This document shows positions 29 to 5,685 of a stretch of 46,070 bases of DNA, one piece after another. A model generated the notes under the pieces. It worked only from the letters and a program-made list of their open reading frames with translations. It was not told the origin of the DNA and did no database searches. Position 1 is the stretch's first letter. Each line of letters begins with the position of its first letter. Both the position numbers and the translations under genes were made by a program. The stretch spans positions 1 to 46,070 of the forward strand of contig DWUY01000314.1 of the NCBI GenBank assembly GCA_019120515.1, written 5' to 3'. This stretch comes from Candidatus Blautia avicola (GTDB lineage: Bacteria > Bacillota > Clostridia > Lachnospirales > Lachnospiraceae).

Positions 29-128
29 CTCTTATTGTTCGATTTATTCGCTCAGGTTGGCACCTTCCGCATAGCGGGGTTGCCGTGACTTCACAGTTCC
101 TATGTAACTCCATCACTCTGAATAAGAG
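29..128 (-). ncRNA. SAM-I (S-box) riboswitch, controlling a gene off the left edge
   Basis: The minus strand reads CTCTTATTCAGAGTGATGGAG...GGAACTGTGAAGTCACGGCAACCCCGC...GAAGGTGCCAACCTGAGCG...AATAAGAG. It has the S-box blocks CAGAGTGATGGAG, TGAAG..ACGGCAACC and AAGGTGCCAA. A perfect 8-bp P1 pairs CTCTTATT (128-121) with AATAAGAG (36-29). Confidence 0.85.
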
Positions 129-199: not shown

Positions 200-1498
200 T
201 TATCCAACCCGAAGCTGGAATTTTTTAATCTCTTTTTCACTGGAAACTTTTTCAATCTCTGCACCCAAAGCTCTCAGTTTTTCTTCAAAACGCTCGTATC
301 CTCTCTGGATATAAACGATATCATCTACAATAGTGATCCCCTCTGCCGCAAGTCCGGCAATAACCAGAGCCGCCCCTGCCCGAAGGTCCGGAGCGCTGAC
401 CTGGGCTCCTGTCAGTTTTTCTACGCCATTGACAATGGCCGTATTGCCTTCCACTTTGATATCTGCGCCCATGCGCACCAGCTCTGCCACATATTTAAAA
501 CGGTTTTCAAAAATACTTTCTGTAATGATACTTGTCCCTTCTGCCAGAGTCAGCGCTACAGCAAACTGAGGCTGCATATCCGTAGGATATCCGGGATAGG
601 GCATAGTTTTTACATTGGTCCGTTTCAGCCGTTTATTGGCAACCACCCGGACTGCATCGTCAAACTCTTCAACCTGACATCCGATTTCTTCTAGTTTCGC
701 CGTTGTGGCTTCCAGATGTTTCGGGATCACATTTTTCACCATCACATCTCCCATAGTAGCGGCTGCAGCGCACATAAAGGTGCCTGCCTCGATCTGGTCC
801 GGAATGATCGAATAGCTGGTGCCGTGAAGTTTTTCCACGCCTCTGATACGAATCACATCAGTACCTGCCCCTTTGATATTAGCTCCCATACTGTTCAGAA
901 AATTGGCCACATCTACCACATGGGGTTCTTTGGCCGCATTTTCGATGGTAGTATAGCCGTTTGCCATAGCTGCCGCCATCATAATATTAATGGTGGCGCC
1001 TACAGAAACCATGTCCAGGAAAATATGTTTTCCTCTCAGTTCCTCAGCTTTTGCAACTACAGCTCCGTGGATAATATCCACAGATGCTCCCAGAGCACGA
1101 AATCCCTTCAGATGCTGGTCGATAGGACGGCTGCCGATATTGCAGCCTCCCGGAAGAGGGACCTCTGCATTTTTATATTTGCCAAGAAGAGCTCCCAGAA
1201 GATAATAGGAAGCCCGGATCTTCTTTATATATTCATACTCGACAGTAATATTTCCAATTGTAGCTCCTACGATCCTTACTTCTGTAGGACTGATACGCTC
1301 CACAGTCGCACCGATCTCTCTGATAGCCTCCAGCAGGACATTAATATCCCGCACATCCGGCAGATTCTCAATATGCACAGCCTCGTCTGTCATGATCGCT
1401 GCTGCCAGGATAGCCAGAGCCGCGTTCTTTGCACCGCCTATCTCTACTTCTCCTACTAAAGGATTTCCGCCTTTGATAATATACTGTTCCATATACAC
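200..1498 (-). CDS. murA: UDP-N-acetylglucosamine 1-carboxyvinyltransferase (MurA)
   Basis: 432 aa. EPSP-synthase-like fold sequence (MEQYIIKGGNPLVGEVEIGGAKNAALAILAAAI..., PGYPTDMQPQF). Confidence 0.96.
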   Translation of the reverse strand: MYMEQYIIKGGNPLVGEVEIGGAKNAALAILAAAIMTDEAVHIENLPDVRDINVLLEAIREIGATVERISPTEVRIVGATIGNITVEYEYIKKIRASYYLLGALLGKYKNAEVPLPGGCNIGSRPIDQHLKGFRALGASVDIIHGAVVAKAEELRGKHIFLDMVSVGATINIMMAAAMANGYTTIENAAKEPHVVDVANFLNSMGANIKGAGTDVIRIRGVEKLHGTSYSIIPDQIEAGTFMCAAAATMGDVMVKNVIPKHLEATTAKLEEIGCQVEEFDDAVRVVANKRLKRTNVKTMPYPGYPTDMQPQFAVALTLAEGTSIITESIFENRFKYVAELVRMGADIKVEGNTAIVNGVEKLTGAQVSAPDLRAGAALVIAGLAAEGITIVDDIVYIQRGYERFEEKLRALGAEIEKVSSEKEIKKFQLRVG

Positions 1499-1570: not shown

Positions 1571-1710
1571 GCCCCTGTAATACAATCCGCCCCATAAGGC
1601 AATCCTGAAAACATTCGCACTCCGGCCTACCGGCCTTCCTGCTCATGTTTTGCGGGTCCTAAATCCATGGTTTTTCATGCAAGCATGAAACCCTTGGCTT
1701 TTGGACCCTT
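1571..1710 (-). ncRNA. Structured leader element upstream of murA (apical TTCATGC-NN-GCATGAA hairpin plus AAAACAT...ATGTTTT hairpin)
   Basis: Outer stem GGGTCC 1654-1659 / GGACCC 1703-1708 with apex TTCATGC(AA)GCATGAA 1674-1689. Second hairpin AAAACAT 1608-1614 / ATGTTTT 1645-1651 encloses GGCC(tacc)GGCC 1624-1635. Same layout as the leader of the S1-domain gene. Confidence 0.65.
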
Positions 1711-1821
1711 GGTATCATTTTATGACTTAACCATAATATTATAACAGATAAATGTTTTTGTAAACAAAAATTAAAATTTTACCCTTCTTCTTTTCACCTG
1801 AATTTTATTTTAATTCTGTAA

Positions 1822-2929: not shown

Positions 2930-4588
2930 TCAGCTGTTGTTCTGCTGAAGAGTTCCGATAAAAGCAGGGATCAGCTGTTTCTTTCTGGAAACGACTCCAG
3001 GAAGCAGATAGCCCCCGTCTTTCTCCTTGACTTCAAAAGATTCTTCCACCAGTCTTCCGCTGCCGTCTCCATAGCAGAGGATTTCTGAAGATTCCTCCAG
3101 GATATTGGTAAGCATAAAGAACACCATGGAAACTCCGTTCTTTCCACATTCATGCTTCATAACCGGCAGGATCCTCTTCTTCAGATCCTTCAGTTCCTGG
3201 GCGCTCATAGAACTGATCTGTCCTACGCCAAAGTTTACCTTATCCGAAGTAAAACGCTTAAAGTCCTGATAAAAGATAACTTCAATAGTTTTCCCCTTCA
3301 GATTGCTGCCTGCGGTGAACATCTCTTTTGCAAACTCTTCTATATTAATTCCTGCAATAAGAGCCAGCGCCCCCGCCGCCATCTTGTCGGAAGAGGTGCA
3401 GGTAGGCGACCGGAACATAAGAGTATCCGAGATAATCGCCGCGCAAAGCAACCCTGCGATCTGAGGGCTGATCTCCAAGGATTTTTCCACATACATCTGG
3501 TAGAGGATCGTTGCCGTACATCCCACCGGCTGATTGCGGAACATAATAGGCTGGAGAGTCTCCAGGGAACCCAGCCTGTGATGGTCGATGATCTCCAGGA
3601 TCTCCGCGGAATCAATGTTGTCCACTGCCTGTGTCTTTTCATTATGGTCTACCAGGATCAACTGTTTTTTCTTCATTCCCAGAAGATTTCTCCTGGACAC
3701 GGTTCCGATATACTTGCCATGCTTATTCACTACAGGGAACGCCCTGTGGCGGTTTTTTACCATAATGTCCTTAATATTGTCTGTATAATCATCGGTCTGG
3801 AAAGTGATCAGATTGTCCTTCTTCATAATGTGTTTCACCGGGATACTCTGATTGATCAGCCTTGCCACACTGAAAGTATCCAGAGCAGACTGGATGATCA
3901 CACATTGGTTTTTCTCCGCCGCATCTTTAATATCCTGTTCAACCTCTGTATGGTTGCAGACAATGATACAGCTTACATTCTGCTCTATGGCGCAGAGATG
4001 ATCCTCATGCCGGTCACCCAGGATAACCAGATCATCTTCCTCCAGGAACTCTCCCATTTTATCCGGGTGGGCTGCTCCGATGACCACCTTTCCCCTTACA
4101 AAATATCCATGGGGATTTCCGGTAACTACCCTCCCTTCTACAGTATTGGCAATACTTCTGTACTGGGTTTTTGCATTCGAAAGAAAATAATTGTCATGAG
4201 CATCCATATAAGATTTGGCAATATCCCCTGTTGTGATCAGGCCTTCCAGTTTCCCGTCCTCCTTGGTGATCGGCAGGGTCACCGCACTGGTCTGCTTCAT
4301 AATAGCCCAGGCGTCCTTAATAGAAATACTGTTCTCCACACCCGGCGTCTCCCGGATCTCCATATCCTTCACCTGAGTCCCTACATCCGAAAGATATCCC
4401 GGTGCCTCCACGCCAAACCTCTTCAGCACATACTCCGTCTCCTCATTTATCTGCCCGGCCCTCTTCGCCGCATACTTACTTCCTTTATTCAATCGGTTCT
4501 TAAAATCCGCATAGGCAATCGCGGAACAAATAGAATCCGTATCCGGATTCTTATGCCCGATAATATAAATTTTCCTCTGCTTCGCCAT
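2930..4588 (-). CDS. ppaC: Manganese-dependent inorganic pyrophosphatase with CBS and DRTGG domains
   Basis: 552 aa; DHH motifs (GHKNPDTDSICSAIAYA, DHHRLGS) with a CBS/DRTGG insert. Confidence 0.93.
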   Translation of the reverse strand: MAKQRKIYIIGHKNPDTDSICSAIAYADFKNRLNKGSKYAAKRAGQINEETEYVLKRFGVEAPGYLSDVGTQVKDMEIRETPGVENSISIKDAWAIMKQTSAVTLPITKEDGKLEGLITTGDIAKSYMDAHDNYFLSNAKTQYRSIANTVEGRVVTGNPHGYFVRGKVVIGAAHPDKMGEFLEEDDLVILGDRHEDHLCAIEQNVSCIIVCNHTEVEQDIKDAAEKNQCVIIQSALDTFSVARLINQSIPVKHIMKKDNLITFQTDDYTDNIKDIMVKNRHRAFPVVNKHGKYIGTVSRRNLLGMKKKQLILVDHNEKTQAVDNIDSAEILEIIDHHRLGSLETLQPIMFRNQPVGCTATILYQMYVEKSLEISPQIAGLLCAAIISDTLMFRSPTCTSSDKMAAGALALIAGINIEEFAKEMFTAGSNLKGKTIEVIFYQDFKRFTSDKVNFGVGQISSMSAQELKDLKKRILPVMKHECGKNGVSMVFFMLTNILEESSEILCYGDGSGRLVEESFEVKEKDGGYLLPGVVSRKKQLIPAFIGTLQQNNS

Positions 4589-4674
4589 TCCACATATCCT
4601 TTCTCAAAGGTCATTTCCACTTCTTTTTTTATACTATCACACTTCTAATTTCCTGGCAATTATGATATGATACT

Positions 4675-4930
4675 AGGGGCGAAAGCTCAGATATTTCATG
4701 CTTGCATGAATATATCTGAATTTGAGCCCCGTTAAAACATGAACATGTAGCCCGATAGGGCGGAATGTGAATGTTTTTCTGAATTGTGGGAGCCCAAAGG
4801 GCGGAACAATTCAGGGAGTATTATTAAACTTGAGGGTGAGACCCGCTAAAAACATGAGCATGGAAACCGTTAGGTTGGAATGCGAATGTTTTCTGAATTG
4901 CGGGAGCCGAAGGCGGAGCAATTCTGGGGG
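4675..4930 (+). ncRNA. Structured leader of the S1-domain gene: CATGC-apex hairpin followed by two tandem copies of a two-hairpin module
   Basis: Hairpin GGGGC...TTTCATGC(TT)GCATGAA...GCCCC (4676-4730). Unit 1 hairpin A 4734-4777 and hairpin B 4779-4814; unit 2 hairpin A 4848-4892 and hairpin B 4893-4924. Stems are conserved between copies by compensatory changes. Confidence 0.75.
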
Positions 4931-4977
4931 ATAGCATTTCCCCGAATTTTAAACTGTATTTAAAGGAGGAGCGAATT

Positions 4978-5685
4978 ATGTCAGAAGAAACAAAGAAACC
5001 GGAAACCATGGAAGATTACATGAATGAGATCAACGCATCCTTTTCTAATTTCCGGGATGACGATATGCTGATCTGGGACAAGCTGACCCAGATGAAAGAG
5101 GATAAAGAAGCTTTTGAAGTTACGGTAGAAGGTATCGTAAAGGGCGGTGTGATCGCCTATGTGGAAGGTATCCGCGCCTTTATCCCGGTATCTCAGCTGG
5201 CTCTTCACTATGTGGAAAATCCCGAGGATTATTTAAAGAAAACCCTTACTGTCAGGGTGATCGAAGTGGATGAACAGGAAAACCGCCTGGTACTTTCAGC
5301 CAAAGAGGTACAAAGAGAAAAGGCTCAGGAAGAAAAGCTGGAAAAGATCCAGAATATTAAAGTAGGAAGTATCGTGGAAGGAACCGTAGAGTCCCTTCAG
5401 ACTTACGGCGCATTTGTTGACCTGGGGGATCATATTTCCGGCCTGGTACATGTTTCCCAGATCTCCGAAAAAAGGATCAAATCTCCAAAGGCTGTGCTCT
5501 CCGTAGGAGACCATGTAAAAGCGAAAGTTATTAAAAATGAAGACGGAAAGATCAGCCTGAGTATAAAAGCCCTTGCTCAGCCTCAGGAAGAAAAAGACGA
5601 AGAACCGGATTTTGAGATTCCCAAAAGCGAAGAGATCTCCACATCTTTAGGTTCTCTTCTGAAAAATATAAAGATCAACGGTTAA
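4978..5685 (+). CDS. S1 RNA-binding domain protein (two S1 domains)
   Basis: 235 aa; 'GGVIAYVEGIRAFIPVSQL' and 'GSIVEGTVESLQTYGAFVDLGDHISGLVHVSQIS'. GGAGGA ribosome-binding site upstream. Confidence 0.92.
   Translation: MSEETKKPETMEDYMNEINASFSNFRDDDMLIWDKLTQMKEDKEAFEVTVEGIVKGGVIAYVEGIRAFIPVSQLALHYVENPEDYLKKTLTVRVIEVDEQENRLVLSAKEVQREKAQEEKLEKIQNIKVGSIVEGTVESLQTYGAFVDLGDHISGLVHVSQISEKRIKSPKAVLSVGDHVKAKVIKNEDGKISLSIKALAQPQEEKDEEPDFEIPKSEEISTSLGSLLKNIKING

Follow-up and report, generated by a model that had tools for sequence, protein, structure and literature searches.

In Escherichia coli, the S1-domain protein gene rpsA is preceded by an autoregulated hairpin leader, and ribosomal protein S1 controls its own synthesis. 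Clostridiales-1 RNA (Rfam RF01699) was described as a probable RNA that is neither cis-regulatory nor a riboswitch, with no function given (Weinberg 2010; PMC2864571); Rfam gives its type as 'Gene; sRNA', not as a mobile element. The BOX element of Streptococcus pneumoniae is an interspersed intergenic MITE with terminal inverted repeats, whose RNA folds stably and whose boxB units vary in number (PMC3049150). Prokaryotic MITEs more generally, in the accessible part of one account (PMC10969869), are short and geneless, with terminal inverted repeats, direct repeats of AT-rich targets, transcripts that form stable stem-loops, and deletion derivatives.

We analysed a window of 46,070 nt from Candidatus Blautia avicola (contig DWUY01000314.1, positions 1 to 46,070), in which a sequence-only reading had singled out tandem hairpin modules in the leader of an S1-domain protein gene and had recognised no named class. 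A named class exists: both S1-leader modules, together with a copy upstream of a murA-like gene, match RF01699, scoring 123.3, 61.7 and 68.3 bits, respectively, all above the gathering threshold of 48 bits. The family itself is already known, and the S1-leader hairpins belong to it as a catalogued but unexplained RNA; no text describing mobility of Clostridiales-1, or explaining it, was found in the searchable literature (subscription papers lie outside it). Copy 1 (4668..4823, forward strand; E 8.2e-28) has the complete RF01699 architecture of P1, P2 and hairpins A and B. Its P2 is a long hairpin with a GCUUGC loop (4676..4730), identified from sequence, folding and the RF01699 alignment; hairpins A (4734..4777) and B (4779..4814) are further supported by ortholog comparison. 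In copy 2 (4825..4933, forward strand; E 2.8e-11) nearly all of P2 has been deleted and only a short stem is left; hairpins A (4849..4892) and B (4894..4924) are recognisable from sequence, the RF01699 alignment and ortholog comparison. Sequence and leader comparison identify a terminal hairpin, GGGG-GATAGCATTT-CCCC (4926..4943); its 5' side is formed by the former P1 3' arm, which in genome G011 pairs with TATCCCC. All of these features are on the same strand as the downstream gene (4978..5685, forward strand), which encodes a 235 aa protein with two S1 domains (PF00575, E 4.4e-28, two stretches). The third copy (1578..1717, reverse strand; left flank TAAAA, of the form T...A) lies upstream of a MurA/EPSP-synthase family gene (200..1498, reverse strand; PF00275, E 1.7e-110). 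Elsewhere in the window, a SAM riboswitch (RF00162, 74.6 bits) lies at the edge (29-128, reverse strand), and a 498-aa open frame (3152-4648, forward strand) wholly antisense to a DHH/CBS gene (2930-4588, reverse strand) is probably mechanical.

Direct reading of the sequence bore out the hairpins and their positions. The region 4640-4960 has a minimum free energy (MFE) of -119.9 kcal/mol, compared with a mean of -82 (sd 5.6) for shuffled sequences (z -6.8), and none of 100 shuffles gave an equal or better value. The earlier description of two ~90-nt copies needs one correction: copy 1 is a full 156-nt element that includes P2. The paired changes between the two modules, from GCCC/GGGC to AACC/GGTT and from T-A to C-G, were confirmed; nonetheless, two copies at the S1 locus cannot by themselves prove compensation, because modules have been exchanged or multiplied within the locus.

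The window's own genome has 20 RF01699 copies. Matches were found in 23 of 61 relatives, at 1 to 35 per genome and often in tandem (21 in G001, 13 in G011, 31 in G014 and 30 in G021), and some close relatives have none. Across the class, eight of 291 genomes have strong matches, seven from the same family and one from the same order. The genes that follow the copies are mutually unrelated, and include murA and genes for a PLP enzyme, a phosphorylase, SerRS, guanylate kinase, LGT, BacA, GalT and a PheT-like protein. This patchy dispersal beside unrelated genes indicates that the S1-leader element is one instance of a dispersed repeat. At one pair of orthologous loci, L001 and L044, genomes G000 and G014 are 96.5% identical, as compared with mostly 82-92% at other orthologous loci, which suggests that DNA around an element copy was recently exchanged by horizontal transfer. 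We found no match indicating carriage on a plasmid. Element-like matches also occur in 16 unannotated faecal 'Bacteriophage sp.' records of 4-11 kb (including MT837314.1 and MT837121.1), which could be bacterial DNA or could reflect carriage by phage-like elements.

The S1 gene was found in 20 genomes of the genus, and its leader, which follows a conserved promoter region, differs widely among them. At least ten of these genomes have no module, including at least eight with short element-free leaders (G002, G003, G006, G007, G010, G012, G013 and G016) as well as G005 and G018; five others have between one and four modules: G011 has a single module, G000 has two, G019 has two and an additional P2 hairpin, G001 has three and G014 has four (these counts leave out G017, where the contig ends, and G004, G008, G009 and G015). 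Comparison of these orthologous loci shows that modules have multiplied at the S1 leader. In the 12 A+B modules of the five loci, pairing is nearly perfect throughout while the tips differ, with GCTC/GAGC as a further tip and a stem pair changed from G-C to A-T; exchange of modules could contribute to these paired differences. The sequence-only reading had proposed an autoregulatory or ligand-sensing leader, in which binding of the S1 protein, or of a ligand, to the tandem hairpins would regulate synthesis of the protein. Such a dedicated leader would fit the retention of the fold and of the GGA-bearing internal loops in all 12 modules, and the position of the element, which lies 45 nt upstream of the S1-gene start codon. 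We nonetheless consider it highly unlikely, since the same element precedes many unrelated genes, with no consistent association with a gene or pathway, and S1 orthologs within the genus have anywhere from zero to four modules. Moreover, no expression platform was seen: a simple scan of the S1 leader found no terminator-like hairpin, and MFE folding found no paired or occluded Shine-Dalgarno sequence.

Inspection of the flanks of more than 70 copies showed that the element extends beyond the Rfam model. Many copies are followed by an extra hairpin, GTTGGGGGC...GCCCCCAAC, and by ATCA, so that the complete unit reads TGAT...ATCA, is about 195-212 nt long (up to 249 nt in a few cases) and contains no gene. 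Its ends are imperfect terminal inverted repeats of about 13 bp, TGATRCCAGGGKC...GMCCCCRACATCA. Exact 5-bp direct repeats flank 16 of 35 units, compared with 1.4 expected by permutation of flanks (maximum of 8 in 10,000 permutations). An independent set of 32 copies was assembled by exact right-end search of public genomes, which gave matches in Blautia, Mediterraneibacter, Lachnospira rogosae, Lachnospiraceae bacterium GAM79 and others, and by leaving out the genomes already used. Exact 5-bp repeats, which read T(A/T)(T)(A/T)A, flank 19 of the 32 (3.7 in permutations), and exact 6-bp repeats flank six (0.36 in permutations), giving 25 copies with target duplications of 5-6 bp and the form TNNNA, where about 4 are expected. 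The left border follows the T...A rule in 27 of 33 copies with a right end and in 26 of 38 TGAT-type copies without one, the latter compared with 4-13 at neighbouring positions and including both the S1 copy (TGATA) and the murA copy (TAAAA).

We searched sister genomes for empty sites by joining the flanks of each unit without the unit and one target copy, and alignments revealed uninterrupted DNA with a single copy of the target. The site of L014 is empty in six genomes (G001, G011, G017, G019, G018 and G005) and that of L083 in G000, the flanks sharing an overlap of 5 nt; that of L091 is empty in G011, G001 and G000. The family transposes, as the target duplications and empty sites show. 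Together with deletion derivatives of 71-137 nt that keep both ends, several of them with a visible target duplication, they identify RF01699 as a MITE-like mobile element. There is further variety within the family. Seven loci in G022 (L105, L106, L108, L109, L111, L112 and L114) belong to a second subfamily with ends TGAGCCAAGGGAC...GTCGGGCAACTCA (TGAGCC...AACTCA), which likewise produces a 5-bp T...A duplication; it does not begin with TGAT, yet its initial bases still form an inverted repeat. In the right flanks of L003 and L017, a different hairpin, GAGGTCAAATTC-TATTTGACCTC, replaces GTTGGGGGC...GCCCCCAAC, suggesting that right ends may be exchangeable. At L007:1501-1721 in G000, another palindrome (GGCGCTAAACGTCC...GGACGTTTGCTTAGCGCC) interrupts a Clostridiales-1 copy, a nested repeat insertion.

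End-pattern searches of draft genomes G021, G027 and G014 and of the complete genome of GAM79 found no autonomous partner with the same ends and no pair of ends that encloses a transposase; the single pair at a spacing of 4.2 kb proved to be separate element fragments. The transposase would presumably act in trans. Imperfect hairpins in multiple intergenic copies, often at gene ends, are also what would be expected of a REP/BIME-type repeat moved through single-stranded hairpins by a RAYT (Y1 transposase). That reading is largely refuted and barely credible, since no Y1_Tnp match (PF01797) was found in the copy-rich genomes G001, G011, G014 and G021, and Clostridiales-1 makes 5-6 bp duplications, whereas Y1 transposases are not known to make target duplications.

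The suggestion that the fold rather than the sequence is under selection is borne out by the wider family. In 43 diverse copies, two-sided changes occur at 19 of the 23 pairs called by RNAalifold, and the internal loops of purines (GA/GA, GAA/GGA and GGGA/GGA) are conserved. Across 55 non-redundant loci, 32 distinct 5' arms are seen in the outer stem P1, and the two arms are complementary in 49 loci, compared with a mean of 17 and a maximum of 27 when arms are swapped between loci. Such wide variation of the outer-stem arms among older copies would be odd if they served purely as transposon ends. The sequence-only reading had set its proposal against a decayed mobile element; the element is mobile, but its fold has been maintained rather than decayed.

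Copies tend to be oriented with the genes around them. Based on simple ORF calls for the stronger hits of chosen genomes, with some loci orthologous, such that the counts are indicative, 42 copies without a right end are co-oriented with both neighbours and seven are antisense to both; among copies with a target duplication, the corresponding numbers are 11 and one. Random insertion followed by selection for sense orientation was sought as a contrast between young and old copies, which did not differ significantly (Fisher p 0.29), so that insertion bias and selection are inseparable. On the same indicative counts, many copies start no more than a few bases from an upstream stop codon; in eleven, that stop is the first triplet of the element itself. 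L134, L138 and L143 in G021 are gene-end insertions of this kind, with TGA or TAA as the first triplet, and when the unit is removed a stop once more follows the target directly.

Strong covariation regardless of neighbours would also be compatible with a free, multicopy small RNA gene that acts in trans and has spread by duplication, in line with the family's Rfam type and its listing as not cis-regulatory (Weinberg 2010; PMC2864571). We regard this as unlikely: target duplications and empty sites show that the copies have spread by transposition, the strong co-orientation with neighbours suggests that the RNA works, or is tolerated, inside mRNAs, and the window copy has no terminator of its own. 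Rather, sense bias and covariation point to a role in host mRNA, which may be stabilisation, insulation or protein binding, these being indistinguishable on the present data.

At both window loci, S1 and murA, the right-end hairpin and the right target copy are missing, so that insertion there rests on homology and the left footprint; target duplication is seen at the level of the family, and none is visible at the S1 copy, where the right end has been lost. From homology, the left footprint and the absence of the element in element-free relatives, we infer that the S1 copy arose by transposition. The footprint, TGATA (4663..4667, forward strand), lies directly 5' of the element and fits the left-border T...A rule, and the same 5-mer occurs at the -10 position of element-free relatives such as G007. 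The DNA upstream of the element, up to GGCAATTATG(A/T)TA, is common to these relatives, whose -10 sequence is TATACT or TATAAT. Comparison with them suggests a putative -10 box, TATGAT (4666..4671, forward strand), that is half host (TA) and half element (TGAT); G007 has TATACT where the element's TGAT completes TATGAT. Transcription usually begins 6-7 nt downstream of such -10 boxes. If it does so here, the S1 RNA would begin at P2, and the P1 5' arm would be part of the promoter at this locus.

We consider it likely that the window feature represents one copy of a mobile, MITE-like element found in Lachnospiraceae, with Clostridiales-1 as its inner part, and that it has the following history at the S1 locus and a role in mRNA. 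The element inserts at TNNNA, duplicating 5 and sometimes 6 bp, presumably by means of a trans-acting transposase. An ancestral copy may have inserted at TGATA, within the -10 box of the S1-domain gene, and the first bases of the element, TGAT, would have rebuilt the box as TATGAT; we propose that promoter activity was consequently retained and that the element came to serve as the 5' leader. The A+B module could then have multiplied to between one and four copies through subsequent recombination or slippage. The folded sense-strand RNA may make insertions tolerable or useful within transcripts, for example by stabilising or insulating the mRNA or by binding a host protein, which would account for the retention of copies in sense orientation and for their beginning at upstream stop codons; gene-specific sensing would not be needed. 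It is possible, though doubtful, that Clostridiales-1 goes further and is a transposable element with an RNA fold as its cargo, a portable leader or intercistronic device (perhaps an antiterminator, an mRNA stabiliser or a recruiter of a host protein) that lets operons go on working once it has inserted, has its outer-stem arms rebuilt anew at every site and, at some loci, is tuned through the number of modules. If so, gene regulation would be spread by the transposition of a structured RNA.

With our analysis, an orphan Rfam family acquires a biological identity, that of a mobile element in gut Lachnospiraceae and not of a fixed sRNA gene or riboswitch candidate, and its boundary is corrected. 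It is unusual for the RNA fold of a transposable element to be under strong selection after insertion, and loci distinguished solely by their number of modules, the S1 leader among them, offer a way to test how structured RNAs come to be spread among unrelated operons. The mobile identity, the longer true boundary and the retention of the fold after insertion all appear to be undescribed in the searchable literature.

The RF01699 model has the same sequence and four-helix fold as the window copies, but it stops at the P1 3' arm, short of the right-end hairpin and the ATCA terminus by which the mobile unit is defined. The E. coli rpsA leader differs in that Clostridiales-1 is not tied to S1 genes, and the window protein is a two-domain protein of 235 aa, not ribosomal protein S1. 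REP/BIME sequences are likewise intergenic hairpin repeats that often adjoin gene ends; unlike those associated with RAYT, Clostridiales-1 has 5-6 bp target duplications, and several copy-rich genomes have no Y1 transposase. Clostridiales-1 shares the general features of prokaryotic MITEs, with RNA covariation of a strength not described for MITEs in the accessible part of that account (PMC10969869). Its nearest functional parallel, by analogy of architecture, appears to be pneumococcal BOX. Both have variable internal tandem modules, boxB in the one and A+B in the other; the folds are unrelated and the host groups differ, and Clostridiales-1, unlike BOX, combines P1 arms that are locus-specific yet complementary with a strong bias towards the sense strand.
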